Below, piece after piece: positions 2,685-39,015 of a DNA stretch of 39,233 bases. The DNA is from Halanaerobiaceae bacterium (GTDB taxonomy: Bacteria > Bacillota > Halanaerobiia > Halanaerobiales > Halarsenatibacteraceae). Every line of letters begins with the position of its first letter. The stretch's first letter is position 1. A program made the translations under genes and the position numbers. The stretch spans positions 1-39,233 of the forward strand of contig PWEJ01000049.1 of the NCBI GenBank assembly GCA_003553485.1, written 5' to 3'. Below the pieces are notes generated by a model. The model saw nothing but the letters and a program-made list of their open reading frames with translations. It was not told the origin of the DNA and searched no databases.

Positions 2685-3354
2685 AACCAATTAACATCAC
2701 CGCCAATCCTTGATAATTTTCAAAAGCTATTTCTTCAGCCCTTCCTCGAATAATTCTTTCTTCAACATAGGAGAGATTTTCTCCGATAATTACGGGAATA
2801 TCAGCAAAGCCTTCCTCAACTAGAAGGGCAGCCAACCGGCCAGGATTGTTTTTAGCATCAGTCAAGAGAGCTAATACGTTATCCTTTATCAATTCAGTCA
2901 GCCGGGGCAGTTCTCTGCCATGACAGCTGCTGAAGGTAAAATTTTGCCAGGTTAGATTGCAGGCTGCTGTTAAATATTGCACTGAAGATAATCCAGGGAT
3001 AGTAGTTATATTTCTACGGGGAAATTTTTCTCTAATTGACTTAGCCAGACTAAAAAAACCAGGGTCCCCGGTTACCGCCACTGCAATTGGAGGCTGATTT
3101 TCCTTTAACTCCCTTGCTATCTCCTTTTCTAAACCCTGGCTGAAGTTAATTTTAGTACAGGTTCGGTTGAGCCGGGTTTTTTTAATAGTTGCAATAGAGC
3201 GCAGACTCCCCATTATTAAAGAGCAGCTCTCAAGCTCTTTAATGGCCCTAGGAGTCAAATAATCTGGATGGCCGGGTCCTATGCCCACAATTTTTATATC
3301 TGCTGCTCCAGCTTCTTTTTGCTTCCGGCTATTAATTTCTTTCATAGTAATCAC
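2650..3354 (-). CDS. cbiE: Cobalt-precorrin-7 C5-methyltransferase CbiE
   Basis: Tetrapyrrole methylase that adds the C-5 methyl group; partner of CbiT in the same step pair. The signature VGIGPGHPDYLTPRA appears at about residues 24-38, followed by AVTGDPGFFSLA and TIPGLSSVQYL, all typical of CbiE. The frame can start at GTG 3354, which overlaps the last base of the cbiD UAG, or at ATG 3345; both leave a roughly 20-residue leader before the core. No strong Shine-Dalgarno is seen, which suggests translation by reinitiation from cbiD. Confidence 0.93.
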   Translation of the reverse strand: MITMKEINSRKQKEAGAADIKIVGIGPGHPDYLTPRAIKELESCSLIMGSLRSIATIKKTRLNRTCTKINFSQGLEKEIARELKENQPPIAVAVTGDPGFFSLAKSIREKFPRRNITTIPGLSSVQYLTAACNLTWQNFTFSSCHGRELPRLTELIKDNVLALLTDAKNNPGRLAALLVEEGFADIPVIIGENLSYVEERIIRGRAEEIAFENYQGLAVMLIGYELEDRISTRG

Positions 3355-4502: not shown

Positions 4503-4572
4503 CGCCCTCCTAGACTCTCAATAGCTAAATTGAGAACTTTTAAAGCGGTTAAAATTTTACCTGGCAGAATTA

Positions 4573-5202
4573 TTAACTGGCAAAGTGATATAAAAAAGCA
4601 TTAATGATAGCTGCAGCTATATTGCTGCCTCCCTTAAGTCCTTGCAATGTAATAGAAGGCAAACGGGCAGCTAAAAGTTCTTTTTTGCTGGCAGCAGCAC
4701 CGACAAAGCCCACTGGCACCCCTATTACTCCAGCTGGATTAAGCTGCTCTTTTTTAAAGAGCTCCAGCAGTTGGAATAATCCCGTTGGTGCATTACCAAA
4801 GACAAAAATAGCTTCAGGGTGATTTTGGGCTGCAAGTTCAACAGCGGCCATGGAGCGAGTAATCTCTTTTTCAGCCGCCAGAGCAGCCGTTTCTTTTTCG
4901 GCAATCAAAGTAAAGGCCTTTAAATTAAGCTCTGTTAATTTCTTTTTATTGATACCGGCTAAAACCATATTGGTATCGGTGATTATCGGTCTTTCTTTTT
5001 TGATAGCCTCCTCAAAGTTTGCTAAACTGTCAGAGGAGAAGTTTAACATCCCCAGGCAATCAGGGTCGGCAGTGGTGTGGATAACCCTTTTTATTATCTT
5101 GCGCTGTAATTCTGGAAGTCCCTCTGTGCTTTCTCCAATTAAACTTTCAATAATTTTCATGCTTTTTTCTTCAATCTGATTGGGATCCTGACAAAATTCC
5201 AT
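4573..5202 (-). CDS. cbiC: Cobalt-precorrin-8 methylmutase CbiC
   Basis: Moves the C-11 methyl group to C-12, giving cobyrinic acid; also called precorrin-8X methylmutase or CbiC/CobH. From ATG 5202 the product is 209 residues, the usual length, starting MEFCQDPNQIEEKSM; TTAGGAGAG lies 7 nt upstream, which is why I prefer it to the frame start at 5271 that would overlap pduX. Signatures are RVIHTTADPDCLGML (containing the catalytic His), the TDTNMVLAGI segment and GVPVGFVGAAASKKEL near the C-terminus. It sits between pduX and cbiD in the same operon. Confidence 0.95.
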   Translation of the reverse strand: MEFCQDPNQIEEKSMKIIESLIGESTEGLPELQRKIIKRVIHTTADPDCLGMLNFSSDSLANFEEAIKKERPIITDTNMVLAGINKKKLTELNLKAFTLIAEKETAALAAEKEITRSMAAVELAAQNHPEAIFVFGNAPTGLFQLLELFKKEQLNPAGVIGVPVGFVGAAASKKELLAARLPSITLQGLKGGSNIAAAIINAFLYHFAS

Positions 5203-5236
5203 TTTATCTCTCCTAAAGGTTAATATTGAGTATAAA

Positions 5237-6163
5237 TCAGCTGGTTTTATACCTGTATTTCTTAAAACCATTGCTGAGAGCAGACTTGACTTCTACTCCT
5301 CCTGACACAATTGATAAATTCCAGGTTAGTGGATAGTGGGCAAAGACAGCTGCAGCAGCAAGCTCTTGTCGCAGCTTTTTAAGATTGACTACTTCAGGTT
5401 CATATAATATGCCAATAACATTGCCACTGTGGGCTATATTGACTCCAAAACAGGAAAATTCTTCACTGATGTTAATTATAGATTGCAATTTAGGGTAATG
5501 CAATTTATCCTGCCAGGCTAGAGCACTTAGAGTGGCTGCTTTTCCGAGATCATACCAATTTTTTTCCCTAAAACCACGCTCACATAACTGCCAACTTGTC
5601 GAGACATCTGGTATCTCCCCCCGGAAATTGCGCTGTTCCATGGTATCATATCGACCGGCCTGCCCCAGGGCTAAAACCTTTACTTCAGGCTGTATTTCTC
5701 CCATGATTCTCCAGGAACTACCTTTGTTCTGCTCCAGCAAAGCAAATTCAGTAAAAATAGTACTATCGGTGGGTTCAATCGCAGTCAAATATTCTAAAGC
5801 TCTGGGAAGAGTTAATTTTTTACCTGTCAAAAGGGTAGTAGCAGTCAATATTAACATTAAATCAGCGGTACTGCTGGCTAAACCCTTTCCCACGGGGATA
5901 TTCTGCTGATGATGCCAGCAATACTTTTCAACTAGGCCATCCTGAATATTCCACTCTTGGGCCAGCAATTTAAATAGGCTCTGCATTTTTAAGGGCAAAT
6001 CACATATCTTGGACTTTTTATTATTATGCTCGCCTCTCTTCTCGATGGTAAGATAGTTATATAGATTCACTGGATAGGAGAGCAATTTTTCCTGGCCATT
6101 AATTTTGCCCTGGATTAACTCTCCGCAGGAAGCTGGCATCCTCAAGCTTAGTCTTTTATTCAC
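5237..6163 (-). CDS. pduX: L-threonine kinase PduX-like (GHMP kinase)
   Basis: GHMP-superfamily kinase. The glycine-rich ATP loop is PVGKGLASSTADLML near residue 90, and the N-terminal MPASCGELIQGKINGQE is typical of PduX. PduX phosphorylates L-threonine to O-phospho-L-threonine, the substrate of CobD, which makes the aminopropanol linker of the nucleotide loop. Its position directly after cobD (2-nt gap) supports this. The start is GTG at 6163 with GGAGG 10 nt upstream, inside the end of cobD. Length 308 residues. A different small-molecule kinase cannot be excluded from motifs alone, but the context makes threonine kinase most likely. Confidence 0.86.
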   Translation of the reverse strand: MNKRLSLRMPASCGELIQGKINGQEKLLSYPVNLYNYLTIEKRGEHNNKKSKICDLPLKMQSLFKLLAQEWNIQDGLVEKYCWHHQQNIPVGKGLASSTADLMLILTATTLLTGKKLTLPRALEYLTAIEPTDSTIFTEFALLEQNKGSSWRIMGEIQPEVKVLALGQAGRYDTMEQRNFRGEIPDVSTSWQLCERGFREKNWYDLGKAATLSALAWQDKLHYPKLQSIINISEEFSCFGVNIAHSGNVIGILYEPEVVNLKKLRQELAAAAVFAHYPLTWNLSIVSGGVEVKSALSNGFKKYRYKTS

Positions 6164-6165
6164 AA

Positions 6166-7224
6166 TTATTTATCCTCCAAAACAGCCTTTAAAGCTTTAG
6201 TTAGTTTAAGATTATCGGCCTCTTCCTTGACTGCCAGCCTGAAAAATTTCTCATTTAAACCAGCAAAGCTGGCACAGTTCCTCAGCAGAAAGCCTCTAGC
6301 CACCATACTCTGCTGTAAATCCCTGGCTGTAAAGTCATCAGTCTTAAGCTTGACCAGGATGAAATTTGCCTCTCCAGGAAATATTTTAATTTGAGGAAGC
6401 TCTGCTAACTGCTGCTGAAAAGAAACCTTTGCCTTCTGAAAGCCAGTTAAAGTTTTTTGGCGGTATTTTTTACACTCTGGTATTAAAGAGCCGGCCTCAG
6501 CAGCCAGGGTATTAATTGGCCAGGGTGGCTGATTGGCTGCCAATTTTTTAACTATCGGTTTGGGGGCGATTAAATAGCCCAATCTCAATCCTGGTAAAGC
6601 ATAGAATTTGGTCAAAGAACGGAGTATTATTAGCTTTTGCTGTTCTTCTATTAGAGGTATAAAGCTTTCACTTTCTTCCCGGGTAAGGTATTCTATAAAG
6701 GATTCATCAATAACTACATATTCACATTTTTCTAATAGGGGCAGCAATTTTTCTCGTGCCAGTAAACTGCCATCGGGATTGTTAGGACGGCAAATAAAAC
6801 TACCGGCAATTTCTTCTTTGTTTAAAATAGCCAGCATTTTATCCCGGGGCAGAGCAAAATTATCTTCTTCCTGACGATAAATCAGCTTACATTGACAGTT
6901 CTTGGCTGCCAGCGCTGCCTGATATTCTGAAAAAGTTGGCTGGGGAAGGATTGCTTTCTTGCCCCGAAATAATTCGGCTACCAGATAAATCAATTCAGCA
7001 GCTCCATTGCCCAGCAAAATCTGCTGAGGCTCCACTCCCTGCCAGTCAGCCAGCTTATTTTTTAATGCTCTGTATTTAATATCTGGATATTTTGCCAGCT
7101 CCCCGATATGGCTTTTGATTGCCCTGGCAATTTTGGGGGGCAAACCCCGGGGATTTATATTGCTTGAATAATCTACTATATCTTCCTGGTAATCATATAT
7201 ATTTCCACCATGAACTGGTTTCAT
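6166..7224 (-). CDS. cobD: L-threonine-O-3-phosphate decarboxylase CobD
   Basis: PLP-dependent fold-type I enzyme (aminotransferase class I/II family) that decarboxylates threonine phosphate to (R)-1-amino-2-propanol phosphate, substrate of CbiB. The N-terminus KPVHGGNIYDYQEDIVDYSS is characteristic of CobD/CobC. The PLP lysine is in RSLTKFYALPGLRLGYLI, near residue 205, and the Asn/Asp of the PLP site appear in CRPNNPDGSL and VVIDESFIEY. 352 residues. Histidinol-phosphate aminotransferase is the closest paralog, but the GGN N-terminus and operon context argue for CobD. Confidence 0.93.
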   Translation of the reverse strand: MKPVHGGNIYDYQEDIVDYSSNINPRGLPPKIARAIKSHIGELAKYPDIKYRALKNKLADWQGVEPQQILLGNGAAELIYLVAELFRGKKAILPQPTFSEYQAALAAKNCQCKLIYRQEEDNFALPRDKMLAILNKEEIAGSFICRPNNPDGSLLAREKLLPLLEKCEYVVIDESFIEYLTREESESFIPLIEEQQKLIILRSLTKFYALPGLRLGYLIAPKPIVKKLAANQPPWPINTLAAEAGSLIPECKKYRQKTLTGFQKAKVSFQQQLAELPQIKIFPGEANFILVKLKTDDFTARDLQQSMVARGFLLRNCASFAGLNEKFFRLAVKEEADNLKLTKALKAVLEDK

Positions 7225-7243
7225 AACGAAATCACTCCTAAGA

Positions 7244-8197
7244 TTAGACCCAGAACAGATAAAAGAAGCTCATGATCAGGAAAAATAAAGCCTCACTTAA
7301 ATATATCAATTTAACCGCCTCTCTAATTATTGGCGGGCTTATCTTCCTTTCTCCGCTACCAATAAAGGGTTTTTCAACTAGTTGACCAAAATAATAATCT
7401 GGCCCTCCTAATTTTACTTTTAAAGCCCCTGCAGCAGCAGCTTCAGAAAAACCTGAATTGGGCCCACTGGCCTTACGAGCATCCCTGGTCATAACCTGCC
7501 AGCTTTCCTTCCAATCTCCTCCTACCAGAGGGCTTAAAAAGACTATCAATAAACCGGTGATCCGGGCCGGAAGCCAGTTGAGCAGGTCATCAAGGCGGGC
7601 AGCAAACCGGCCAAATTTAAGATATTTTTCATTCTTGTACCCCACCATAGAGTCTAAAGTATTTACGGCTTTATAAAGCATTATAGTAAGACCTGCATAA
7701 CTACCACCGATAAATGCATAAAACAAAGGAGCAGTTATCCCATCGACTATATTCTCAGCAATCGTCTCCACTGTCGCTCTGGAAAGATCTTCTGCCTCCA
7801 TCTGGGAAGTATCCCGGGTTACCAAATAGCCAACTTCTTTTCTAGCTTCCTTTAGTCGGCCTGATTCCAGTAGTTTAGCAATCTTTCTCCCTTCCGCAGC
7901 CAGAGTCTTTGCTGCCATCCCCTGCCAGATGAGATAGATAGTAAATAAATCAGCCAGGGGCCTATAAAACCACAGGAATAAAAATCTCAAAGCTAGAATG
8001 ATAAAGGTTGCCACCAGCAGTACTAAAAAAACTAACAGAACTCCCTGGCTAAAAGTACCTCTTTTATTTTTAGTCAAAAATTGTTCCAGTTTTTCAATTA
8101 AGGTTCCCAGGCCAGCGATAGGATGGGGCAAGGGCGCCGGGTCTCCCAGTATAAGGTCCAGTACAAGGCCTGCAAGCAATAGATAAACAGCAGACAT
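7244..8197 (-). CDS. cbiB: Adenosylcobinamide-phosphate synthase CbiB (membrane)
   Basis: Integral membrane enzyme that joins aminopropanol phosphate to adenosylcobyric acid. The protein starts MSAVYLLLAGLVLDLILGDP, and LILGDPAPLPHPIAGLG is the family signature; others are ATVETIAENIVDGITAPLFY and KAVNTLDSMVGYKNEKY. At least four hydrophobic segments are visible, including residues 1-18, roughly 50-75 and the C-terminal 20 residues. 317 residues, normal length. It begins 2 nt after the cbiP stop, so the two are probably translationally coupled. Confidence 0.95.
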   Translation of the reverse strand: MSAVYLLLAGLVLDLILGDPAPLPHPIAGLGTLIEKLEQFLTKNKRGTFSQGVLLVFLVLLVATFIILALRFLFLWFYRPLADLFTIYLIWQGMAAKTLAAEGRKIAKLLESGRLKEARKEVGYLVTRDTSQMEAEDLSRATVETIAENIVDGITAPLFYAFIGGSYAGLTIMLYKAVNTLDSMVGYKNEKYLKFGRFAARLDDLLNWLPARITGLLIVFLSPLVGGDWKESWQVMTRDARKASGPNSGFSEAAAAGALKVKLGGPDYYFGQLVEKPFIGSGERKISPPIIREAVKLIYLSEALFFLIMSFFYLFWV

Positions 8198-8199
8198 TT

Positions 8200-9726
8200 T
8201 TAATCCATACCCTTTAAGCCAGCTATAGAATAAAGAAGTTTCTGATCTAAATGTTCCTCCAGCATATCAGCCAGCTTATCATATTCCTGTTCTTTAAATT
8301 CTTGATAACTCTGTTCGGGAGCAGTGATCTCTGATAATCCCAGAGAAGCTCTTAAATTATTAACAAGGCAGGTAGTCCAGTCTTTGTTTTCAAAAATTCC
8401 ATGCCAGTAGGTGCCCAGGACATTGTTTTGCTGGTTAAGGAGAGCAATAACTTCCTGTTCTCCCGGCTCTAAGCTTTTTAAAGGCTCTTTAACTTTAGTG
8501 GAAGTCAGGCTGGTCTTCCCCATATGTATTTCATAGCCAGATAACTCCAGGCCAGCCATATCTTTAAATAATTTGCTGTCTTCATGCTGCCAGGTACCAT
8601 TAACCTGGACAGTTTTCTTCTCAGCAGTCATAGTTGTTTTAATGGGCAGTAGACCTAAACCTGGAACGCTCTTTAAATTACTTTCAGCACCTTTAGGATC
8701 ATTAAGCTCTTCTCCTAACATCTGAAAGCCTCCGCAGATGCCAATGAGCACTCCTCCCTGGCTGACATATTCATTTAACCTGCTATCGAAGCCCTTCTGC
8801 TGCAGAAAAACTCTATCTCCCAGGGTATTTTTGCTTCCAGGTATTATAACCAGATCAGCCCCCTCTAATCCAGCCGGTTCTCTAATATATTCAATATCAA
8901 GATCATCATACATCTCCAGGGGATTAAAATCGGTAAAATTAGAGATATGTGGCAGTAGAATAATCTTCACTTTAATATCCCCACTTTTATTTGAACTACT
9001 CTGTAATCTCTCACTTAAACTATCTTCATCATCAAGGGCCATTTCCTGGTAGGGCAAGACCCCTAAAAAGGGTATCCCTAACATCTCCTCAAGCTCCTTT
9101 AAGCCTGGCTGCAGGAGTTTCTTATCCCCTCTGAATTTATTGATCAGTAGAGCCTTCACTCTTTTTTTATCTGCTGGAGGTAATAATTCAACTGTTCCAT
9201 AAAGAGAGGCAAAGACTCCTCCTCTATCGATATCTCCGGCTAACAAAACCGGAGCCTCGACCATCCGGGCAAAACCCATGTTGACAATATCATTCTCCTG
9301 TAGATTAATCTCCGCCGGACTGCCAGCTCCTTCAATAACAATAACATCAAATTTTTCTGCTAGCTTTTCATATTCTGCTTTAACAATATCTTTAAGTTCT
9401 GGTTTGAAGTTATAATATTCTTCAGCTGTCATATTATCCTTCGGTCTACCCTTCAATATAACCTGAGAGCCCATCTCTCCTGAGGGTTTTAGCAGCACAG
9501 GATTCATGGATACTTGAGGTTTAATCCCGGCCGCTTCCGCTTGAAAGACCTGAGCTCTGCCCATCTCTAAGCCATCAGCTGTAACATAAGAGTTTAAAGC
9601 CATATTTTGGGCTTTAAAGGGTGCAGCTTTTAAGCCCTGACGTTTAAATAATCTACAGAGTCCTGCTACTATGACACTTTTGCCCACCGAAGAACCAGTT
9701 CCCTGAACCATCAAATTTTTTGCCAT
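8200..9726 (-). CDS. cbiP: Adenosylcobyric acid synthase (glutamine-hydrolysing) CbiP
   Basis: Amidates side chains b, d, e and g of adenosylcobyrinic acid a,c-diamide using glutamine and ATP. An N-terminal dethiobiotin-synthetase-like ATPase domain carries the P-loop VQGTGSSVGKSVIVAG at about residues 6-21. The C-terminal class I glutaminase domain has the nucleophile Cys in LIGICGGFQMLGEEL, and its His in GTYWHGIFE. I chose ATG 9726 (MAKNLMVQG) with AGGGGGA upstream; the frame extends to a TTG at 9759 but that overlaps cbiA further. 508 residues, usual for CobQ/CbiP. Confidence 0.96.
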   Translation of the reverse strand: MAKNLMVQGTGSSVGKSVIVAGLCRLFKRQGLKAAPFKAQNMALNSYVTADGLEMGRAQVFQAEAAGIKPQVSMNPVLLKPSGEMGSQVILKGRPKDNMTAEEYYNFKPELKDIVKAEYEKLAEKFDVIVIEGAGSPAEINLQENDIVNMGFARMVEAPVLLAGDIDRGGVFASLYGTVELLPPADKKRVKALLINKFRGDKKLLQPGLKELEEMLGIPFLGVLPYQEMALDDEDSLSERLQSSSNKSGDIKVKIILLPHISNFTDFNPLEMYDDLDIEYIREPAGLEGADLVIIPGSKNTLGDRVFLQQKGFDSRLNEYVSQGGVLIGICGGFQMLGEELNDPKGAESNLKSVPGLGLLPIKTTMTAEKKTVQVNGTWQHEDSKLFKDMAGLELSGYEIHMGKTSLTSTKVKEPLKSLEPGEQEVIALLNQQNNVLGTYWHGIFENKDWTTCLVNNLRASLGLSEITAPEQSYQEFKEQEYDKLADMLEEHLDQKLLYSIAGLKGMD

Positions 9727-11102
9727 GAACTTATTTCCCCCTGACACAATTTCAACCAAGTATTAACAAATTCCGGATTGCTATAAAAATGAAGATGAGG
9801 ATAACCAGCAAGCAGATTGTTCTTTATTACGAAGCCCGAACGACAATTTTTTCGCCGGGCATATTCTAGCTCCGCCCCGTAGGTCAATTTATCATCATTT
9901 ATCAACTTAGAATAGTGAAATTCATGTCCCTTAATCTTTAGACCCCAGGAAAAATCTATGGTCAGATAACCAAAGTTTTGCAGGCGCTCGGTCATTATGG
10001 AACTTGCCGGTAAAAAGCCGGTCATTTGATAATATTCGGTCTCTGTAATATATACCTTCTCCAATAGATACATAAAACCACCACATTCAGCAAAGGCAGG
10101 TAATCCATTTTGTAGTTTTGACTTTAAGTCTTCTTTAAAACTTCTGTTTTCTTCCAGCTCCCTGGCAAATTCTTCGGGAAAACCACCGGCTAAATAAATT
10201 CCGGAGAGATTATCGGGCAAGCATTTATCCTTTAAAGGGCTAAATTCAACTAACTCACAACCGGCTTCTTTAAGAAGATCCAGATTGGCCTGATAGTAAA
10301 AACTAAAGGCTTTATCCCTGGCAATGCCTATTCTAAGATTATTTTTGCCAGTTCCTTTAGTTGAGATATTAATGTCATTTAAAGGTCTTGCAAAGTTTTC
10401 TGGCAGGGAAACCTCACCAGCTTCACTGCTTATATTTCTGATCTTAGAGAGCTGAAAATTATCTTTTATTTTTTGGCCCAGGCTGGCTATCTTTTCTTTA
10501 ATAGCCGGAATCTCTGCCGCCGGTACTAACCCTAAATGCCTCGAGGGCAGCTCAAAATCAAGGCCCTTTTTTAGATAGCCCACCGTAGGCAGGCCTGTCT
10601 CCTTTTCAATGGCCTGAGAAATAAGGTCAAAATGTCCTTCACTGCCGACTTTATTGACAATCACCCCGGCTAAATTAACATCACTGTTAAAATTCTTGTA
10701 TCCCAGGACCAAAGCTGCTGCACTCCGGGCCATACCACTGCCATCTATTACTAATAAGACTGGAATATTAAGTAAACTGGCTATTTCAGCCGAACTTCCC
10801 TGATCATTAATAGCTGAAACCCCATCATAAAAACCCATTACTCCCTCTACCACTGCTATTCCATCATTGCTATTTGCCTTCTGCCAGAGATATTTTAAAT
10901 TTTCTGGCGAAAGAAGCCAGCTATCCAGATTATGTGAAGGTCTCTCACAGGCTAAACGATGAAAACCAGGATCAATATAATCGGGCCCAACTTTAAAGGG
11001 ATTAACTAAAAATCTCTTTTGTTTTAAAGCAGCCATCAATCCCAGGCTAATTGTTGTCTTTCCCACTCCACTATCTGTGCCTGCCACCATCACCGCTTGC
11101 AT
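9711..11102 (-). CDS. cbiA: Cobyrinic acid a,c-diamide synthase CbiA
   Basis: Glutamine-dependent amidotransferase that amidates side chains a and c. The P-loop ATPase domain begins MVAGTDSGVGKTTISLGL; the following FKVGPDYIDPGFH and HNLDSWLL are CbiA/CobB signatures. The class I glutaminase part has the Cys nucleophile in AFAECGGFMYLLEKV, and GYPHLHFYSNPEF holds the C-terminal His region. 463 residues, full length. Its stop (UGA at 9711) lies within the start of cbiP, a 16-nt overlap. It starts 22 nt after cobO, with GGGGGAA before the ATG. Confidence 0.96.
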   Translation of the reverse strand: MQAVMVAGTDSGVGKTTISLGLMAALKQKRFLVNPFKVGPDYIDPGFHRLACERPSHNLDSWLLSPENLKYLWQKANSNDGIAVVEGVMGFYDGVSAINDQGSSAEIASLLNIPVLLVIDGSGMARSAAALVLGYKNFNSDVNLAGVIVNKVGSEGHFDLISQAIEKETGLPTVGYLKKGLDFELPSRHLGLVPAAEIPAIKEKIASLGQKIKDNFQLSKIRNISSEAGEVSLPENFARPLNDINISTKGTGKNNLRIGIARDKAFSFYYQANLDLLKEAGCELVEFSPLKDKCLPDNLSGIYLAGGFPEEFARELEENRSFKEDLKSKLQNGLPAFAECGGFMYLLEKVYITETEYYQMTGFLPASSIMTERLQNFGYLTIDFSWGLKIKGHEFHYSKLINDDKLTYGAELEYARRKNCRSGFVIKNNLLAGYPHLHFYSNPEFVNTWLKLCQGEISSWQKI

Positions 11103-11124
11103 GAAAATTCCCCCTGCTTAATAA

Positions 11125-11637
11125 TTATTTCTCTATTCCCACTCTAGCTTTAACTCCCTGCTGAAAATAATGCTTAATTTCTTTCATCTCAGTTACCAGA
11201 TCTGCTTTATCTATTAGCTCTTTAGGAGCCTCTCTACCCGTTATAATTACTTCCACTCCCTCTGCTCGCTGAGATATAGCCTGCCAGAGGTCAGCAAAGG
11301 AAAATAATTGATATTTTAAGGCTATCATGGCTTCATCAAGGATAACTATATCATAATTTCCTGATGATAATTTTTTTGCCGCTACCTCAAGACCTCTTCT
11401 GGCAGCCTGATAATCTTCTTCCTCTGGTTCCTTTCTAATAAAACAACTGCGGCCAAACTGCTCTAATTCCAGACCGGGAATTTTTTCAATGGCTTTAAGT
11501 TCGCTATATTCCTGTCCTTTAACAAATTGCCCAATAAAGACTTTCAACCCTGCCCCGGAAGCTCTTAAAGCCAGTCCTAAAGCTGCCGTGGTCTTCCCTT
11601 TACCATTACCTGTGTAAACCTGTACCATGCCCTTCAT
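11125..11637 (-). CDS. cobO: Corrinoid (cob(I)yrinic acid a,c-diamide) adenosyltransferase CobO/BtuR
   Basis: Transfers the 5'-deoxyadenosyl group of ATP to cobalt of reduced corrinoids. The P-loop QVYTGNGKGKTTAALGLALR starts at about residue 5, and IVILDEAMIALKY is the Walker B region; the family is CobA/CobO/BtuR, not the PduO type. ATG 11637 (MKGMVQVY) is preceded by GGAGGG and gives 170 residues, the usual size. The frame extends upstream to 11742, but that stretch is the riboswitch terminator hairpin, so it is untranslated leader. First gene of the cobalamin operon. Confidence 0.95.
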   Translation of the reverse strand: MKGMVQVYTGNGKGKTTAALGLALRASGAGLKVFIGQFVKGQEYSELKAIEKIPGLELEQFGRSCFIRKEPEEEDYQAARRGLEVAAKKLSSGNYDIVILDEAMIALKYQLFSFADLWQAISQRAEGVEVIITGREAPKELIDKADLVTEMKEIKHYFQQGVKARVGIEK

Positions 11638-11672
11638 TTTGTCTTCCCTCCAGCAGTCTAAAAATTTTGTCC

Positions 11673-11708
11673 TAAATAAAACAAGCGCATCTCCCCCAGG
11701 AGATGCGC
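11673..11708 (-). terminator. Riboswitch-controlled intrinsic terminator before cobO
   Basis: On the minus strand GCGCATCTCC and GGAGATGCGC form a perfect 10-bp stem with a 4-nt loop, followed by TTGTTTTATTTA. It lies between the cobalamin riboswitch and the cobO ribosome site, so it is the likely expression platform: bound adenosylcobalamin would favour this hairpin and stop transcription of the operon. The stem and tail are seen; the regulatory direction is inferred from known cobalamin riboswitches. Confidence 0.88.
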
Positions 11709-11828
11709 ACTTACTCAAGTCAGACCTAAAACCAATATTCATAAAAAGCTATAGAAGCTATAATATTAGCTAGAAATCCTGTCCTGATAAAATGCCAGCC
11801 CACTCCCGCCGAGCGACTGTTACAGCTC

Positions 11829-11975
11829 ATTCTGGCAGGTCTTCTGACTGAGGTCCATTCTCCAACACCTTCCCGGATTAACCCAGTGGATCAATTGTTG
11901 AAGAGAAAACCATCACAGCAGCGGGGGCTGTATCGGAGTTACACCGATTTCCCTTTTAAGTCTTTACACCAGTAT
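11829..11975 (-). ncRNA. Cobalamin riboswitch (B12 element)
   Basis: Reading the minus strand from 11975, the leader shows an AAGGGAA block, then GGTGTAACTCCGATACAGC, CCCCGCTGCTGTGATGG, a GGGAAGGTG block and finally the conserved 3' block GTCAGAAGACCTGCCAG. These are the ordered conserved segments of the B12 element. CTGG near the 5' end can pair with CCAG at the 3' end to close P1. It controls the cobO-cbiG operon, with a terminator downstream at 11673-11708. Exact ends are approximate. Confidence 0.94.
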
Positions 11976-12026
11976 GAGTATCTTTAAAGTATTTATTTTT
12001 TTCTTTACAGAAAATTTACTGCCTTA

Positions 12027-25369: not shown

Positions 25370-26707
25370 TTAGTCGGTCTGAGGCATATAATGTACTTCT
25401 ACTTCATCTTCCTCCAGCTCTTGAATAACACTATAGGCATCTGTTCTTTCATAAATACTTAATAGATTCTCTTTTAAATAAATCTCATCCCCCTGAGAAA
25501 AATCTCCCTCAAGAAGGGGGTCAATATTTCTAACTCTGTTACTACTAAAATCTAAATGGTTAAGAGAAGTTAATTCAGCAATTACTGAAATGTCAGCAAC
25601 TTTATTTGCTGAAAATCTTAATTCTTCCAATTCAGTTAGATTAGCCAGATATGATATATCTTCAACTTTGTTATTACTAAAATATAGTACCTCTAAACTA
25701 TCTTTATTTTCCAGGGGTGATATATCAGCAACATGATTTTTGCTGAACTTTAAGTCCTGTAAATTATTGAGGTCTTCTAAAAAACTGATGTCTTCAATAT
25801 TATTGGCACTAAATGTCAAGACCGATAGTTCCTGTAGATCAGCCAGATCAGCTAAATCAGTTAAGTTATTATCTCCCAAAAATAATGTTTGTAAATACTG
25901 TTTATCAGATAACGCAGCAATATCTTCAATTTCATTGCCGTGTAAGTTTAAATAAGATAAATTATCCATATCGGCAAGGCTTGATATGTCGGTGATATCA
26001 TTATCTCTTAAATCTAACCACTCAATATTATTTAGCTCTGCTAGAACTGCAATATCAGAAATTGAGTTATTCCTTAAATCTAGCCTTTCAAGTGAGGTTA
26101 AATTCTCTAATGAATCAATATTGCTAATATCATTACCTCGCAGATCCAGCCATTCCAGGTTCTCTAATTGATGAAGAGCTTCAACCTCAGCAATATTATT
26201 GTTTCTGAGATCCAAAACCTGTAATCTGGTTAAATTTTCTAAAGCCTCAACATCAACAATTTCATTATTGATTAGACCCAGCCAGGCCAGATTAGTAAGA
26301 TTATTTAGAGGTGAAATATCACTGACGTTATTATCATATAAATTCAAATATTCAAGGCCCTGTAATTCTTCTAAATAGGTAATATCTTCAACTTCATTAC
26401 CCCAGAGACTAATCCACCTCAATTCAGTCATATATTGTACACCATCTAAATTTTCAATTTCCTGAAAAGAGGCTCTTAGCTCTGTTATCTCCTCTAAATC
26501 AGAGCGGTAGATATCTTCCTCTGGTTTATCAATCTTTTCTCTAATTACCTCTTCTAAGTTAGGATCAGGAAAAGTAATAACCTCATCATTATCTTGGGCA
26601 ATAATCTCGGAAGTACCAATTAAGCCAATCGACATAATAATAACTAACGAGAGCATGATTATAACTAACTGCTGTTTCTTTAGCGGAAAAAAGTTGGATT
26701 TCTTCAT
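25370..26707 (-). CDS. Secreted leucine-rich-repeat (internalin-type) protein
   Basis: A 445-residue exported protein. Residues 1-40 form a signal peptide (Lys-rich start, long hydrophobic core, likely cleavage after SEIIAQ or IIA). After an internalin-like cap (FPDPNLEEVIREKI) come 14 tandem 22-residue repeats of the type LxxLxxLxLxxNxIxDI, residues about 82-390. Units 1-8 mostly read LxLRxN, while units 10-14 read LxFSxN, so the array has two classes. No LPxTG anchor or S-layer domain is present, so it is probably secreted or loosely attached. Binding partner unknown. GGGGGG precedes the ATG. The gene is convergent with the mrp operon. Confidence 0.9.
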   Translation of the reverse strand: MKKSNFFPLKKQQLVIIMLSLVIIMSIGLIGTSEIIAQDNDEVITFPDPNLEEVIREKIDKPEEDIYRSDLEEITELRASFQEIENLDGVQYMTELRWISLWGNEVEDITYLEELQGLEYLNLYDNNVSDISPLNNLTNLAWLGLINNEIVDVEALENLTRLQVLDLRNNNIAEVEALHQLENLEWLDLRGNDISNIDSLENLTSLERLDLRNNSISDIAVLAELNNIEWLDLRDNDITDISSLADMDNLSYLNLHGNEIEDIAALSDKQYLQTLFLGDNNLTDLADLADLQELSVLTFSANNIEDISFLEDLNNLQDLKFSKNHVADISPLENKDSLEVLYFSNNKVEDISYLANLTELEELRFSANKVADISVIAELTSLNHLDFSSNRVRNIDPLLEGDFSQGDEIYLKENLLSIYERTDAYSVIQELEEDEVEVHYMPQTD

Positions 26708-31128: not shown

Positions 31129-31992
31129 TCAACGGATTAGGGAAAAAGCCATCGCCGTTACCCCCAATTGTAAGGGGTCGTGGATTAAATTAGCACCGAG
31201 TTTTTCTGCTGCTGCTGTAGTAAAACCAGCGGGAATACCCGGGGCAGCGACAAAGGTTTGATCTGTTATATCGCTAGCCTTGAGCAGGTCTCGGGCCGGG
31301 GTGGCTTCAAAAATTAAAGAATACTGGCTGACATCGATTTTTTCTTTGATTGATATTCTTTCCCGGGCAAACTGACTTAATTCCCCGGTCCTTAAGTCTT
31401 TTTTATTGAGAGCTTTATCATAAATCACCGGTTTAGCTTCTTTTTTCAGCAAAATTTTCACTGCTTCTCTGCCAACTCTTCCAGCTCCTAACACCAAAAC
31501 TTCTCTATCTTCTAATTCCCCGGCCATTAATTCAAGGGCGATTAAATATGCTAAAGCAGTGGCCCGGTCATTGTCAATCCAGCAGTAAGAGTCTGTGTTT
31601 TTAGCAATAAATCTCTTATCATCAGCCAAAAACATAATATCATGTTTTTTCTTTAAAGCCTCTCTTATGCCAGCCACATCAGTATTAGTGGTGATTTCAG
31701 TAGGGAAATTCAAATATTGCAGGATAGCTGCAACGGCCTGAGAAAAACCTTTGATTTTTCCCTGACCAGCAGTTACTGGAATAACAGCTATAGAATAATC
31801 AGCAGGTTTAAGCTCAGCCATTATTTTATTAATTTTAGCCTCATCCTTTGGTCCGTCATTAAGAGCAAGAAAATTAGCTGAAAGAACGCCTATCTCTTCT
31901 AAACTATGACCTGTTGATTTTATTAAACCCTGTTCATAAGTTGGTAATTCATCTTTGATAGAAGCAATATCTGTTGTTTTTAATCTAGTCAC
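31129..31992 (-). CDS. pylD: 3-methylornithyl-N6-L-lysine dehydrogenase PylD
   Basis: PylD oxidises and cyclises 3R-methyl-D-ornithyl-N6-L-lysine to give pyrrolysine. It has the NAD-binding Rossmann motif LVLGAGRVGREAVKIL, with GAGRVG at residues 169-174, and the family blocks IPVTAGQGKIKGFSQAVAAI and a final LIHDPLQLGVTAMAF. 287 residues from GTG 31992, with GGAGGTAAGG upstream; slightly longer than archaeal PylD. Gap of 32 nt after pylC. This step completes pyrrolysine synthesis. Confidence 0.93.
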   Translation of the reverse strand: MTRLKTTDIASIKDELPTYEQGLIKSTGHSLEEIGVLSANFLALNDGPKDEAKINKIMAELKPADYSIAVIPVTAGQGKIKGFSQAVAAILQYLNFPTEITTNTDVAGIREALKKKHDIMFLADDKRFIAKNTDSYCWIDNDRATALAYLIALELMAGELEDREVLVLGAGRVGREAVKILLKKEAKPVIYDKALNKKDLRTGELSQFARERISIKEKIDVSQYSLIFEATPARDLLKASDITDQTFVAAPGIPAGFTTAAAEKLGANLIHDPLQLGVTAMAFSLIR

Positions 31993-32024: not shown

Positions 32025-33146
32025 TTAACATTTAAGATGCTTAGTTAACTTTTCCTGAAATTTTTCTCTTTTTATTTTAAGCTCATCCCTATTTTCTCCA
32101 GTGAAATGTAAGATAGCTCGCCAATTATTCTTTTGCTTATCGTAATCTGTAATAGCCGCATCTGCCTCCCAAAAACCATCCTTTAAATCTAACTGCTGAG
32201 CTTCAGTCATAATATGCTCACCAGAGAAGGCGTAACCACCATCAGTTACCAGAACTTGCTCATAAAGAGCCGCTTTAGAACAAGTTTTTTGCTCCTCCAG
32301 ACTCTTTTCCTGTAAAAAAAGTTCTACCAGCATTTTTACCATATTTATACCCTGGGCAAGATAGACCGCTGTAGGGGTCTGACTGGGAAACCTGACATCA
32401 ATCTCTAAAATTTTTAGCCCCTCACCAGTGGCAATAACCTCTAAATCCATAATCCCCTGTAAATCTAATAGTTCTGCTACCTCTAAACCAAGCCGGTTAA
32501 ATTCAGCAATGAGTTCCTGGCCAATAAAATCACCAGCTAAGACCTGATGACAATCATAATCCGGGCCAAATTTAAGCTCTGTCACCGCCAGGGGATAGTA
32601 ATTACCCTGGTAGCCAATTACCTCTAAAGAATAGGCTGGCCCCGTTAAATATTCTTCTAGCACCGAATTTTTTCTTACCGCTGCCGCTATATTATCCAGT
32701 TCTTCAACATCCCTTATAATTTTAACTCCCTGACTGCCACTGCCTTTATTGGGCTTTAATATCAAAGGGAACTCCGCCTCAGGCCAGCTCCGAGCACAGG
32801 GAAGACCATATCGATTGAAAAATTTGCGCGACAAGTCCTTTGAACTGCTGATTTGATAAGATTGATAATCTAAAACCAGTGGTGGAAGACTGGACCTGTG
32901 AGAATTAAGCTCAGCTAAAGCAAGATCATTTTCTAAAGCCGGGAATATTATATCTGTCTTCTGTAATTTATCTAATAAAAAATTAGTAATATTGCTAAGA
33001 TCAGCCTTAATAAAATCATCGGCTAAACCACGGGCTGGAGGGGCATTCTTTCTATCAATGAGCAGAGTATGAAAGCCTGCTCTCCGGGCTAAATAACTAA
33101 TCTCAATTCCCTGCAGCCCTCCTCCGATAATTGCAACTGTCAACAA
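32025..33146 (-). CDS. pylC: 3-methylornithine-L-lysine ligase PylC
   Basis: ATP-grasp ligase joining 3R-methyl-D-ornithine to the epsilon-amine of L-lysine. The N-terminal AIIGGGLQGIEISYLARRAG and the ATP-grasp segment PLILKPNKGSGSQGVKII are clear, as is ILEIDVRFPSQTPTAVYLA. I chose the TTG at 33146 because aligning to known PylC puts the first residue there; GAGAGGGA lies just upstream, in the end of pylB. A TTG at 33188 would overlap pylB by 49 nt and add a charged stretch with no counterpart. 373 residues. Confidence 0.92.
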   Translation of the reverse strand: MLTVAIIGGGLQGIEISYLARRAGFHTLLIDRKNAPPARGLADDFIKADLSNITNFLLDKLQKTDIIFPALENDLALAELNSHRSSLPPLVLDYQSYQISSSKDLSRKFFNRYGLPCARSWPEAEFPLILKPNKGSGSQGVKIIRDVEELDNIAAAVRKNSVLEEYLTGPAYSLEVIGYQGNYYPLAVTELKFGPDYDCHQVLAGDFIGQELIAEFNRLGLEVAELLDLQGIMDLEVIATGEGLKILEIDVRFPSQTPTAVYLAQGINMVKMLVELFLQEKSLEEQKTCSKAALYEQVLVTDGGYAFSGEHIMTEAQQLDLKDGFWEADAAITDYDKQKNNWRAILHFTGENRDELKIKREKFQEKLTKHLKC

Positions 33147-34216
33147 ATTAATTCCCTCTCTTTCTTCCTTCTTCTCCTGTCTATCCAATCCTGGTACTCT
33201 GTGACGGGGGCTAATTTTAATTCTGTATCCTGCAGGACTTCTTTTACCCCTGCTATTGTTCTTTTACCTTCATCTATATCAAGCTTACTATTAGAGACAC
33301 CTTTAAGACCAGCAGCCGGGGGAATTAGAGAGGTAACTACATTGGCCCCTGCAGTCAGTCTGGATTTAAGGCCCTCTATGCCGTCTACATCCAGAGATGC
33401 TGGAATTAAGCTATCCTTTAACACCAGCCTGAGTAAAGCTATCACCAACAGCTCCTGAGACCTCTCAGGCGTCTTCAGAGCTGCCATGGGGGTTCCCTCT
33501 TGAGGCACAAAACTCATAACTCTTCCCTGATCAACATCTAATTGAGCCATAGTTTTGATTGACTTCGCTCTAGAGAAGTTATCTTCTCCAATTCCCAAGA
33601 GAATACCATCTTCAATTAATAAGCCAATCTTTTTTGCTTCTTTTTTTAAAGCCATTCGAGCTGAAAAATCCTGCTCCAGTCGCAGCTCATTAAAAAGATC
33701 TTTATCATGGGTCTCCTGATAGCAGGCATACCAGTCAATGCCAGCCTCTTTAAGGTCTGTTAATTTATCTAAAGGCCACTGGCCAAAGGAAGCCATTAAG
33801 GGCAGTTGAGTCCTATTTTTAATCTTTTGCACTAAATCTAAAAGTTCTCCCCATTTTTTCCCCTGATAAAAATAGGGATCTTCTCCCATGGTTAAATCAA
33901 GGAGATGAACCCCGGACTTAGTCAGGGCTTGAGAGATCTGCATAATCTCTTCCGGTTCCTTGCGATATCTAGGGCTTACTTCATTATTATTGCGATAATA
34001 ACAAAACTTACAATTGTTACGGCAGTGGGTGGAGAAATAGACAAAACCATAGGCAAAAATTTTTGGGCCAAAATACCTTTCTCGCATTTTTCTAGCAGCA
34101 GCAAAAACCTCTTCTCTTGCCCTGGCGTCTTTTAAATCAAGTAAATGTTGAATTTCTGCTACAGTTATTTCTTTTTCCTGTAGAACTTTATTTATAATAG
34201 CTTCCCATCTTTTCAT
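33140..34216 (-). CDS. pylB: (2R,3R)-3-methylornithine synthase PylB (radical SAM)
   Basis: Radical SAM mutase that rearranges L-lysine to 3-methylornithine, the first step of pyrrolysine synthesis. The cluster-binding motif CRNNCKFC gives C65, C69 and C72, within YFSTHCRNNCKFCYYRNNN. The segment LPLMASFGQWPLDKL and the C-terminal LIPPAAGLKGVSNSKLDIDE fit PylB. ATG 34216 has AAGGTGG 6 nt before it; GTG 34225 is an alternative. 358 residues. The pylSc UAG stop is only 18 nt upstream and in the same frame, so UAG suppression would produce a PylSc-PylB fusion. Confidence 0.94.
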   Translation of the reverse strand: MKRWEAIINKVLQEKEITVAEIQHLLDLKDARAREEVFAAARKMRERYFGPKIFAYGFVYFSTHCRNNCKFCYYRNNNEVSPRYRKEPEEIMQISQALTKSGVHLLDLTMGEDPYFYQGKKWGELLDLVQKIKNRTQLPLMASFGQWPLDKLTDLKEAGIDWYACYQETHDKDLFNELRLEQDFSARMALKKEAKKIGLLIEDGILLGIGEDNFSRAKSIKTMAQLDVDQGRVMSFVPQEGTPMAALKTPERSQELLVIALLRLVLKDSLIPASLDVDGIEGLKSRLTAGANVVTSLIPPAAGLKGVSNSKLDIDEGKRTIAGVKEVLQDTELKLAPVTEYQDWIDRRRRKKERELIC

Positions 34217-34234
34217 CTTGACCACCTTAGCTTT

Positions 34235-35071
34235 CTAAATATTAAGTCTAGCCCCATCCTGGTAGATAAGGCTCCTGCCAATACGAGATATGCTGCCAAA
34301 CCCTTCCTTTGCCATAATTAATCTTTCCAGGCCAATTCCTATACCGGCCCAGCTATGGGAGATATCCCAGGCTTGATCCAATTCATGGGGGCCAACAGCT
34401 CCTGAACCTACCTCTATACCCTCTACTAAAACATCTATAGTTTCACCATAGACTTCTGATTCTTCAACAGTAATCTCATAATCAATGGCCAGTTCTTCCA
34501 TTATTACAGCCACTATATTCTTTAATCGCTGCAGAGGCTCTTCTTCCGGCGCCAGCTCTACTAAGTTTAGCATGGTGAACTCAGATAAATGCTCACGACC
34601 GCTTGATTCCTTGCGAAAACAGGTCCCCACTTCAAAGATCTTGACCGGCAGTGATATAGCTTTCTCCAGCCGGCTCAATATATCATAGAGATTAGGAGCA
34701 TGCATCGGCCGCAGGCAATATTCTCTTCCCTCTAACCAATAAATCTGTTTCCATAAAGGATGCTCTTCCGTTAGGCCCATTCTTTCTATCTTACCTCTGG
34801 CCAATTTAAGAGGTGTAATAACTTCAGTAAATTCAATCTCTGCTAAAATAGCACTTAAATCTCTTGTCAATCTTCTAAGCTGAGGTTGAAAATCTTTCGA
34901 GGTCAATTCTTCAAGCCGCTGTTTATTTTTTTGCGCCAATCTATTTTCTATTTCTTTATATTTACTATCTCTAGCCTCGTGATCGGCAAAATCTTCTTCT
35001 AATTGACCAATATATTCATTATGTATATCTAGCTCCCTGATTCTTTGTTGTTGTCCAACGGTAAATTTCAT
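34235..35071 (-). CDS. pylSc: Pyrrolysyl-tRNA synthetase catalytic subunit PylSc
   Basis: Class II aminoacyl-tRNA synthetase core that charges tRNA-Pyl with pyrrolysine. Motif 2 is FRKESSGREHLSEFTMLN (residues 152-169) and motif 3 GIGLER (245-250). The Asn of LN169 corresponds to N346 and V171 to C348 of Methanosarcina mazei PylS; Tyr208 in VYGETID corresponds to Y384. From ATG 35071 (GGAGGTGG upstream) it has 278 residues, the size of bacterial PylSc; an upstream extension to 35167 is not needed. Its stop is UAG, in frame with pylB. Confidence 0.95.
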   Translation of the reverse strand: MKFTVGQQQRIRELDIHNEYIGQLEEDFADHEARDSKYKEIENRLAQKNKQRLEELTSKDFQPQLRRLTRDLSAILAEIEFTEVITPLKLARGKIERMGLTEEHPLWKQIYWLEGREYCLRPMHAPNLYDILSRLEKAISLPVKIFEVGTCFRKESSGREHLSEFTMLNLVELAPEEEPLQRLKNIVAVIMEELAIDYEITVEESEVYGETIDVLVEGIEVGSGAVGPHELDQAWDISHSWAGIGIGLERLIMAKEGFGSISRIGRSLIYQDGARLNI

Positions 35072-35114: not shown

Positions 35115-35423
35115 CTATTTAAAGGCTGTCTTAGAATACTTCTCAAGTTTCCACTCAGGAACGGCACATTTTGGACAGGCTTTGACCATAATCTTATTTC
35201 TTAACCAGCGGGCTGCCCGGCTGTTTTTTGAGTTTTTCACCTGTAATCGCTCGCCACAATAAAGCTCCAGCTCTAAATAATTCCCCTTTGATTCCAGGTT
35301 TTTTATGCCATGAAGCATTCCACTGCGCGAGGGCCAGAGTTTAATTCTCTGCAGCAAGTTTGCTAAAGATTCTTTTTTGCGGAAGACATATTTGGCCTTC
35401 TTATTGCCTCTATTTTTACCCAT
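35115..35423 (-). CDS. pylSn: Pyrrolysyl-tRNA synthetase N-terminal (tRNA-binding) subunit PylSn
   Basis: Separate tRNA-Pyl-binding subunit, as in other bacteria with a split PylS. It has 102 residues; SRSGMLHGIKNL, YCGERLQVKNSKNSRAARWL and ACPKCAVPEW are typical. H38, C56, C83 and C86 have spacing 18, 27 and 3, close to the zinc ligands of the archaeal PylS N-domain. GGGGAG precedes the ATG. It ends in UAG: reading it as Pyl would add about 30 residues with a second UAG, out of frame with pylSc. It starts 113 nt after the end of tRNA-Pyl, with a hairpin between. Confidence 0.93.
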   Translation of the reverse strand: MGKNRGNKKAKYVFRKKESLANLLQRIKLWPSRSGMLHGIKNLESKGNYLELELYCGERLQVKNSKNSRAARWLRNKIMVKACPKCAVPEWKLEKYSKTAFK

Positions 35424-35449: not shown

Positions 35450-35481
35450 TAAAAATCTAAAAGAGGGGCTCATCCCCTCTT
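35450..35481 (-). terminator. Hairpin terminator or attenuator between tRNA-Pyl and pylSn
   Basis: AAGAGGGG and CCCCTCTT pair perfectly (8 bp, 5-nt loop) and are followed on the minus strand by TTAGATTTTTA. It would end the tRNA-Pyl transcript, or reduce readthrough into pylSn-pylD if there is no separate promoter. Confidence 0.8.
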
Positions 35482-35536
35482 AATAGTATTAAGCTTATCC
35501 TTTTAAAACCTCTATAAAATTTTAGCAATAAATATT

Positions 35537-35608
35537 TGGAGGAGAGTCCGGGAGTTACACCCGGCTGCATGGGGTTAGAGCCCATGTGATCCTTCCGATC
35601 AACCCTCC
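35537..35608 (-). tRNA. pylT: tRNA-Pyl (anticodon CUA)
   Basis: A 72-nt tRNA with CCA encoded. On the minus strand: 7-bp acceptor stem GGAGGGT/ACTCTCC (one G-U), one nucleotide, 4-bp D stem GATC/GATC with a 5-nt loop, one nucleotide, a 6-bp anticodon stem CATGGG/CCCATG with loop CTCTAAC (anticodon CUA), a 3-nt variable loop and a 5-bp T stem CCGGG/CCCGG. The long anticodon stem, small D loop and short variable loop are the features of tRNA-Pyl. The discriminator base is U, where Methanosarcina and Desulfitobacterium tRNA-Pyl have G. It lies between mttB and pylSn. A TATAAT-like box sits just upstream. Confidence 0.96.
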
Positions 35609-35686: not shown

Positions 35687-35738
35687 CCATTTTCTTTGCT
35701 ATTATTCTAACATGTTATATCATTTTTGACAAGGTCAA

Positions 35739-37202
35739 TTACTTTTTAACGCTTTCCACAATTTCTTTGAGCTTATTTTGAACTGCCTCGTCTAAGGGTT
35801 CGGGCTCATGGGTTTCTAGAATTTCTCTGGCTCTTTCATCAGCATTCTCTTTGGCTGTTTTGGAACCAGAGGCTTTCCAGTTATCCATCATTTTTCGATC
35901 AAAAATGTCAGCCCGAGCCTGCTCGGTATGCATGTTATCAATGGTGTGTTGCTGGGTTAAGAAGTTACCTCCTGGTTCTACCTCTTTAATCTCTTCTACT
36001 GCCATAGTATAATCGTTAACATCAACTCCCTGGATGACTCTTCTGACCATCTTGGCCATTTCGGCATCCAGAACCAGTTGAGTATGGCTAAAGGTTACAC
36101 CAAGTTCCAGCATTCCCATTCCATATAACATGTTAGATCCTGCCATGGCGGGCAGTAAAAAGGTCATTGTTTTTTCGTGTCCTGCTTGAACGTCAGATCT
36201 TTTGGAGTCTGCCTATCCACCAGCTGTGTAGCTAGGCAGGTTATAGTATCTTGCCAGCCTGGCTACGCCAGCGTTACACATTCCCATCTCCGGTGAGCCT
36301 ACTGGAGCTGTCGACTCTGCCACATCAAAGATAGTGGTGGAACTTCCATACATTACTGGAGCGCCTTTATTTACCAGCTGAGCCAGAGCAATACCGGAAA
36401 GCACCTCGGCATTATGGTCAACTAAAGTACCGGCAATAGTAATCGCTGAAGTAGCTCCAGCCATGGCCATTGATAGTACATTAACAGGAATTCCAGCTCT
36501 AGCACACTCGATTATAATTTGAGCAGCATCACCATGGAGCTCATAGGGGCTTTGCGGGCAAACTAAAGCCGAAATTAAAGGTCTATCTCGCAGCTCATCC
36601 ATACCGCCAGCTACTGCTGCTCCCATTTCAAAATATTTCTTCGCATTTTCTCCACAGGTTAAATCAATATGCATGCAATGCTTGGTGGTATTATTCAAAA
36701 ATGCTTCAGCTTCATGAAGGTCAATATTTTCTCTAGGGGCATCTATAGCACTTACAGCATGAGAATATATATCAACCTGGTCTAAATAATCTGCTATTTT
36801 AGCAGTATCAGCTACATCCTGTTTCTGGGTATCGCGATATTCACCTGTTTCGTAGTCATATATCTTGACCCCAGCTCCAAAGGTGGTAAAGTTAACTCGA
36901 CTATCTCCTACCACCACATCATCCTCTGGTGTTCTACCGGCCAGTAATAGTTCTGGAGGTGCAGACTGAATGGCCTCTTCAATTATATAAGAAGGAATTT
37001 TAACCCTCCCGTTGCTGCGGTTAACCTTAGCACCGGCATTTTCAAATATATCTAGGGCTTCCTCATTAGTTACATGTATACCCATAGTGGCCAATGTTTC
37101 CAGGGTAGCATTGTGGATCTGTCTTAATTCAGCTTCAGTAAACATGTCCAGACTGAAACCATTTTTAACTGGATAATATACTTGTGGATTTCTTTTTGTC
37201 AT
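35739..37202 (-). CDS. mttB: Trimethylamine methyltransferase MttB with in-frame UAG (pyrrolysine)
   Basis: Transfers a methyl group from trimethylamine to a cognate corrinoid protein (MttC). The frame has 487 residues if the UAG at 36213-36215 is read as Pyl at position 330; without it the gene breaks into 329- and about 157-residue pieces. Around the UAG, SYTAGG-Pyl-ADSKRSDVQAGHEKT matches the MttB active-site block, and homology continues unbroken on both sides: N-terminal MFTEAELRQIH, middle VCPQSPYELHGDAAQIIIEC, then PAMAGSNMLYGMGMLE and GGNFLTQQHTIDNMHTEQA. No competing initiation is likely after the UAG. GGAGGG precedes the ATG. A BCCT transporter lies upstream and tRNA-Pyl downstream. 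MttC is not in the window. Confidence 0.95.
36213..36215 (-). other. In-frame UAG codon decoded as pyrrolysine in mttB
   Basis: Codon 330 of mttB. Both flanks are conserved MttB sequence in the same frame, and a full Pyl synthesis and decoding set lies downstream, so UAG here is a sense codon. I see no strong hairpin directly after it. Confidence 0.93.
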
Positions 37203-37434: not shown

Positions 37435-39015
37435 TTAATAGTCAAAGTCAATATCTCCAATAAATTCTCCTCTTTCCAGGTGTTCATAGTCATTTGCCAG
37501 TGCCTTAAATATTCCAACTATACTGGCAATTACAAATAACATGAAGGGAAAAGCTCCAGCAATAGAAGCTGTTTGTAGAGCTCCCAGACCACCGGCCAAC
37601 AATAATACTGCAGCTATAAGACCTTCTAAAACACCCCAGGTAACTTTAACTTGGGTAGAGGGTTCCAATTTTCCTTTAGAAGTTAACATCCCCATAACAA
37701 AGGTGCCGGAGTCAGCTGAAGTAATAAAGAAGGTGGTAATCAAAATCGTGGCCAGAACACTTAATATAGCACCTAGTGGCAATTGCTGTAACGTTACAAA
37801 AAATGCTACTGCCATATCATCGTGAACTGGACCAGATATATCAATTCCTTCAAACATTTCTAAATGCATGGCTGTACCACCCATGGTAGCAAACCATACC
37901 AGCCCAACTACCGCTGGTACAAAAACAACACCTATTACAAACTCTTTAATAGTTCTACCACGAGAAATTCTAGCAATAAAACCACCAACAAAGGGGGTCC
38001 AGGCTATCCACCAGGCCCAGTAAAATATCGTCCACCAGCCCGGCCAGGGATCTCCGGAAACAGAACCGATGTAAAAACTCCTCTGGAAGAACATGTTAAT
38101 ATACTCACCTGTTGCTTCAACAAGATAACTTAAAATAAATACTGTGGGGCCGAAAATTATAACAAAAGCCAGGAGAATCCCACCTATTGTGATGTTAATA
38201 TTACTTAAAACCTTAATTCCTTTATCTATTCCTGTAACTGCGGAAATAATAAATGCTATGGTAATTACTACTACAATTATAGAAGCAGCATTATTGCTAA
38301 CTGGAATACCAATCAATTCTCCTAAACCACTGTTAACCTGTTGAGCACCTAGACCTAAAGAAGTAGCAATGCCAAAAAGGGTTGCAAACACGGCTAAAAT
38401 ATTGAAAAATTTACCCCAAAAACCTTTAACCCCTTCTTTACCAAGTAAAGGGTATAAGGTTGAGCTAGGAAGTTGAGGTAAACCACGGCGGAAAGAAAAG
38501 TAAGCCAACATCAAACCAAAGAAGGCATATAAAGCCCAGGGATGTAAGCCCCAGTGAAAGAAAGAAGAAGCCATAGCCTCTAAAGCTGCTGCTTCAGTTT
38601 CTGCTTCGATACCAAAGGGAGGTGCAGCATAATGCATTATTGGCTCTGCTACTCCCCAGAAAACAAGCCCTATCCCCATACCTGCACTAAATAACATGGC
38701 AATCCAGGAACGAGTTGAATACTCTGGCTCTTCATCAGGCTTACCTAATTTGATTTTACCAAATCGACTGAAACCTAAAATTAATACAAGACCAAAAATA
38801 ACCATGGTAAATAGTAAGTAAAGCCAGCCAAAATTGTTAACCAGGAAATCAAATACTGAATCAATCATTGATCCAAATTGTTCTGTGGCTATTGCTCCCC
38901 AAACAATCAATATAGCTGAGATGATAGCTGAAACCCAGAATATTGTTGGATCAATGTCTTTTAAACCTTTTCCTCTTTTTTCAATTTCCCTTTTCTTTTC
39001 TTCATTATCAGCCAT
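37435..39015 (-). CDS. BCCT family betaine/carnitine/choline-type transporter
   Basis: A 526-residue secondary transporter with about 12 membrane helices. Family signatures: GMGIGLVFWGVAEPIMHY near residue 110, FFHWGLHPWALYAFFGL, and the substrate-site helix FYWAWWIAWTPFVGGFIARI with its tryptophans. These fit BCCT carriers for glycine betaine and related quaternary amines, driven by Na+ or H+. The N- and C-termini are charged and short. GGGGAG precedes the ATG. Directly upstream of mttB, it may feed the methylamine pathway, or act in osmoprotection; both fit a halophile. The 218 nt upstream to the window edge show no gene I can support. Confidence 0.93.
   Translation of the reverse strand: MADNEEKKREIEKRGKGLKDIDPTIFWVSAIISAILIVWGAIATEQFGSMIDSVFDFLVNNFGWLYLLFTMVIFGLVLILGFSRFGKIKLGKPDEEPEYSTRSWIAMLFSAGMGIGLVFWGVAEPIMHYAAPPFGIEAETEAAALEAMASSFFHWGLHPWALYAFFGLMLAYFSFRRGLPQLPSSTLYPLLGKEGVKGFWGKFFNILAVFATLFGIATSLGLGAQQVNSGLGELIGIPVSNNAASIIVVVITIAFIISAVTGIDKGIKVLSNINITIGGILLAFVIIFGPTVFILSYLVEATGEYINMFFQRSFYIGSVSGDPWPGWWTIFYWAWWIAWTPFVGGFIARISRGRTIKEFVIGVVFVPAVVGLVWFATMGGTAMHLEMFEGIDISGPVHDDMAVAFFVTLQQLPLGAILSVLATILITTFFITSADSGTFVMGMLTSKGKLEPSTQVKVTWGVLEGLIAAVLLLAGGLGALQTASIAGAFPFMLFVIASIVGIFKALANDYEHLERGEFIGDIDFDY

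Follow-up and report, generated by a model that had tools for sequence, protein, structure and literature searches.

The window analysed here is a contig of 39,233 nucleotides (C157) from a Halanaerobiaceae bacterium whose genome comprises 2.84 Mb in 172 contigs and is 97.7% complete. On its reverse strand lies mttB (35739-37202), predicted to encode a trimethylamine:corrinoid methyltransferase of 487 residues with a UAG-encoded pyrrolysine (Pyl) at residue 330. The frame runs for 487 codons from an ATG at 37202 to a stop at 35739, and its single interruption is a TAG at 36213-36215. The read-through protein matches TIGR02369, the NCBIfam model for the Pyl form of trimethylamine:corrinoid methyltransferase, in one stretch (residues 16-484) with 722.2 bits against a cut-off of 525, and the Pfam family MTTB with 351 bits. 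Its top matches among solved structures are to Methanosarcina barkeri MttB (PDB 7XCM, 442 bits; 7XCL, 440 bits), and in an end-to-end alignment with 7XCL the UAG at codon 330 stands opposite Pyl334. Gly110 and Tyr364 of the M. barkeri enzyme, partners of Pyl334 whose conservation is described as complete (PMC9842639), correspond in the alignment to Gly109 and Tyr360 of the window MttB, both conserved. The initial annotation had read mttB as cut by one UAG at codon 330 with MttB sequence on either side, and had expected alignment to a characterised MttB to place the UAG on the Pyl codon; the open frame, the TIGR02369 match and the 7XCL alignment bear out both points. On sequence grounds, the family cut-off, the UAG column and the conserved Gly and Tyr place the window mttB among the Pyl-dependent trimethylamine methyltransferases. 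An Rfam match to PYLIS_3 (RF02510; 36116-36215, reverse strand) has its first base on the UAG; it overlaps the mttB coding sequence, and its 86.1 bits may largely reflect that sequence. Published work leaves the part played by PYLIS_3 in decoding uncertain (PMC3639795).

The pyl cassette

On the same strand, mttB is followed by pylT (35537-35608), a 72-nt tRNA-Pyl(CUA) gene detected by ARAGORN, and by the genes for the small tRNA-binding subunit (pylSn, 35115-35423) and the catalytic subunit (pylSc, 34235-35071) of pyrrolysyl-tRNA synthetase, both of which end in UAG. The pylSc open reading frame opens at 35167, and the ATG at 35071 is its likely start. The cassette continues with pylB, encoding the radical SAM enzyme methylornithine synthase (33140-34225), pylC, encoding 3-methylornithine--lysine ligase (32025-33188), and pylD, encoding methylornithyl-lysine dehydrogenase (31129-31992). 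All five proteins score above the curated NCBIfam cut-offs (PylSn, 121 bits against 51; PylSc, 276 against 178; PylB, 456 against 348; PylC, 345 against 248; PylD, 212 against 150). The tRNA has a 6-bp anticodon stem, a 3-nt variable loop, one base between the acceptor and D stems, and an encoded CCA. An identical gene order, mttB-pylT-pylSn-pylSc-pylB-pylC-pylD, is found in another genome of the same family (G004).

These assignments agree with the initial annotation, in which tRNA-Pyl(CUA), pylSn, pylSc, pylB, pylC and pylD followed mttB. Its wider statement, that the window holds all that is required to make and use Pyl, stands for the cassette, which is complete, but not for the corrinoid partner protein of MttB, which is needed for function: none was found in the window, and candidates are located on contig C90. 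The intergenic regions contain, as consensus matches only, a promoter-like site between mttB and pylT (35704-35732; 10/12, extended -10) and a terminator-like hairpin between pylT and pylSn (35457-35483).

Conservation and proposed decoding of the UAG codon

UAG also occupies codon 330 in a second mttB copy of the same genome (C71). It does so in three other genomes as well: G004, G048, which is presumably that of Acetohalobium arabaticum, and G055, which together with G052 is taken as Natroniella. Over the 157 codons after the UAG, pN is 0.058 and pS 0.635 in comparison with the C71 copy, and pN is 0.15-0.23 and pS 0.80 in comparison with the other genomes. These values are close to those upstream of the UAG (C71, G004, G048 and G055). 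Judged by these substitution patterns, the post-UAG codons are under strong protein-level selection, like the pre-UAG codons, and the low pN relative to pS argues that the part beyond the UAG is translated in frame. This selection, the recurrence of UAG330 in four other copies or genomes, the lack of any further interruption in 487 codons and the full pyl gene set alongside mttB all speak against taking the UAG for a genuine stop or an error of sequencing, which would leave a 329-residue protein or a pseudogene. Such a reading is very improbable, although UAG does end about 17% of the other long open reading frames sampled.

That proportion was obtained from about 90 kb of the bacterium's own genome, where TAG ends 15 of 68 long open reading frames; 4 of these 15 are UAG methyltransferases, and with such genes left out the share is 11 of about 64. 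UAG is thus a working stop, and termination at codon 330 would therefore compete with insertion. The UAG closing pylSc is in frame with pylB (33140-35071), so that Pyl insertion could yield a 675-residue PylSc-PylB fusion. The idea that the UAG ends of pylSn and pylSc form a conserved Pyl-sensing feedback switch was rejected, as relatives use TAA, TGA, or TAG followed immediately by TGA.

The preferred explanation, at a probability of roughly 97%, is a standard bacterial Pyl system that would insert Pyl at UAG330 of the trimethylamine:corrinoid methyltransferase; the Pyl column, the MttB flanks and the complete cassette support the earlier proposal that UAG330 is a Pyl codon. Pyrrolysine would be built from two lysines by PylB, PylC and PylD, tRNA-Pyl(CUA) would be charged by PylSc with PylSn, and the charged tRNA would read UAG330 of mttB. 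Pyl330 would then activate trimethylamine, the methyl group passing to a corrinoid protein, possibly one of the candidates on C90. UAG is very probably decoded as Pyl in the cell, trimethylamine is the probable substrate of MttB, and expression may be trimethylamine-dependent by analogy with A. arabaticum.

The discriminator base of tRNA-Pyl and the motif-2 loop of PylSc

The window tRNA-Pyl carries U73 as its discriminator base, and not the canonical G73. G73 has been reported as a major identity element of tRNA-Pyl, and a 2022 paper described it in all other known tRNA-Pyl save for A73 in two archaea (PMC9071458). A 2023 review mentions U73 in tRNA-Pyl of some bacteria (PMC9976931); membership in a pyl cassette is therefore not dependent on G73, and the U73 tRNA-Pyl was rejected as a new discovery. 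The departure from the canonical identity base would be in keeping with a near-cognate or other suppressor tRNA that reads UAG330 and inserts an ordinary amino acid. This is nonetheless extremely improbable, given a dedicated CUA tRNA with Pyl-type features, the adjoining cognate PylSn and PylSc, and the 12 cassettes, of 54, in which a U73 tRNA-Pyl adjoins pylSc, as well as its occurrence in the bacteria covered by the review.

The discriminator base was compared across cassettes with residue X of the PylSc motif-2 loop (C-F-R-K-E-S-X-G). Residue X is Lys or Ser, a grouping chosen after the first cassette set was seen, in 12/12 U73 and 5/42 G73 cassettes (n = 54). The first 41 cassettes contributed 8/8 with U73 and 5/33 with G73, and 13 further cassettes contributed 4/4, all from one family, and 0/9, respectively. 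On the tree, the pairing amounts to 4-5 independent comparisons, nearly all in one direction (sign test, p 0.125). The counts are suggestive, though not proof, of a tie between U73 and Lys/Ser at residue X, and provide a lead. Tentatively, and at somewhat less than even odds, the window tRNA-Pyl and PylSc may represent a naturally switched identity class, in which U73 is read by a PylSc that has Lys or Ser at residue X in place of the usual Gln, Arg, Glu or Asp. In that case, U73 pairs and G73 pairs may show partial orthogonality to each other. Should experiments bear out the link, tRNA-Pyl recognition would gain a simple rule, and there would be new candidates for mutually orthogonal PylRS pairs.

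Other methyltransferases, a probable second, decayed pyl operon and known systems

The genome contains 12 MTTB-family genes, three of which (on C157, C71 and C90) have UAG at the Pyl site and pass TIGR02369. Contig C90 also carries mtbB with a UAG (TIGR02368, 493 bits; PYLIS_2), along with a BCCT transporter gene and genes for two corrinoid proteins. MtmB was sought in the genome and not found, and RamA-like activases score below the family cut-off only. Upstream of the window mttB lies a BCCT-family transporter gene (37435-39015, reverse strand) whose best family is glycine betaine uptake, and which may be linked to the methylamine pathway. A distinct BCCT transporter gene is located directly upstream of each UAG mttB, the other two being at L040:2028-3566 and L041:9657-11246. 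Elsewhere in the window, a large run of cobalamin-biosynthesis-like genes (573-11988; gene names by reading), with a cobalamin riboswitch (RF00174, 11817-11988) at its head, fits a corrinoid-dependent lifestyle. By reading, the window also encodes a 445-residue protein (25370-26707) that is leucine-rich-repeat-like and has a signal-like start.

A second tRNA-Pyl gene, pylT2, identical to the window pylT at 70/72 bases, and pylSn2 are found near the end of C90 (L041:379-858), and an intact pylB2, 60% identical to the window pylB, near the start of C17 (L039:146-1563). Between pylSn2 and pylB2 are two inverted insertion-sequence ends, both flanked by the 5-base AATTT; the same insertion-sequence end is present on C54. 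Beyond the insertion-sequence end, a stretch of about 120 bases is similar to the pylSc 3' end and contains stops and frameshifts, and the genome search returned one full pylSc and one pylD. Most likely, these are the remains of a second Pyl operon that has lost pylSc, with an insertion sequence at the break, and C90 would adjoin C17. Contamination as the source of the second set is not favored: pylT2 is nearly identical to pylT, the insertion-sequence ends match, and the GC content is 37-42% against 40%. Furthermore, the window PylB, PylB2 and that of a Halanaerobiaceae MAG (G007) form one clade in the PylB tree (support 100/96), in which the closest pair is unsettled. The idea that a bacterium with two pyl sets has no precedent was rejected, since extra pylSn copies also occur in G153 and G321 and an archaeon with two natural PylRS pairs is known (PMC9071458).

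Like the window, the A. arabaticum genome (probably G048) has UAG at MttB codon 330 (MttB 73% identical over 486 residues), split pylSn and pylSc, pylB, pylC, pylD and the same tRNA-Pyl type. In contrast to the window, its pylT is upstream of mttB, extra DNA separates pylB from pylC, the tRNA-Pyl has G73 and not U73, and one pylSn was found, against two in the window's genome. The pylTSBCD genes of Desulfitobacterium hafniense likewise form a bacterial cassette with split PylSn and PylSc, but their order differs from that of the window and the tRNA has G73. M. barkeri MttB (PDB 7XCL, 7XCM, 7XCN) belongs to the same enzyme family as the window MttB, whereas PylS in this archaeon is fused rather than split. 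In the phylum, PylD is found in 24/398 sampled genomes (about 6%); across the species collection, 226 places hold PylB relatives, and radical SAM relatives of a more distant kind may be counted among them.

Prat et al. (2012; cited in PMC8318568 and described in PMC11467909) demonstrated Pyl in A. arabaticum. Bacterial Pyl-MttB encoded beside pyl genes is established, and the window system is of the Acetohalobium type of Halanaerobiales and not a discovery. Ordinary gene callers would truncate four enzymes of this genome, three MttB and one MtbB, at UAG. As far as sequence can tell, the window system would confirm that another Halanaerobiales lineage uses a genetic code expanded for growth on methylamines.
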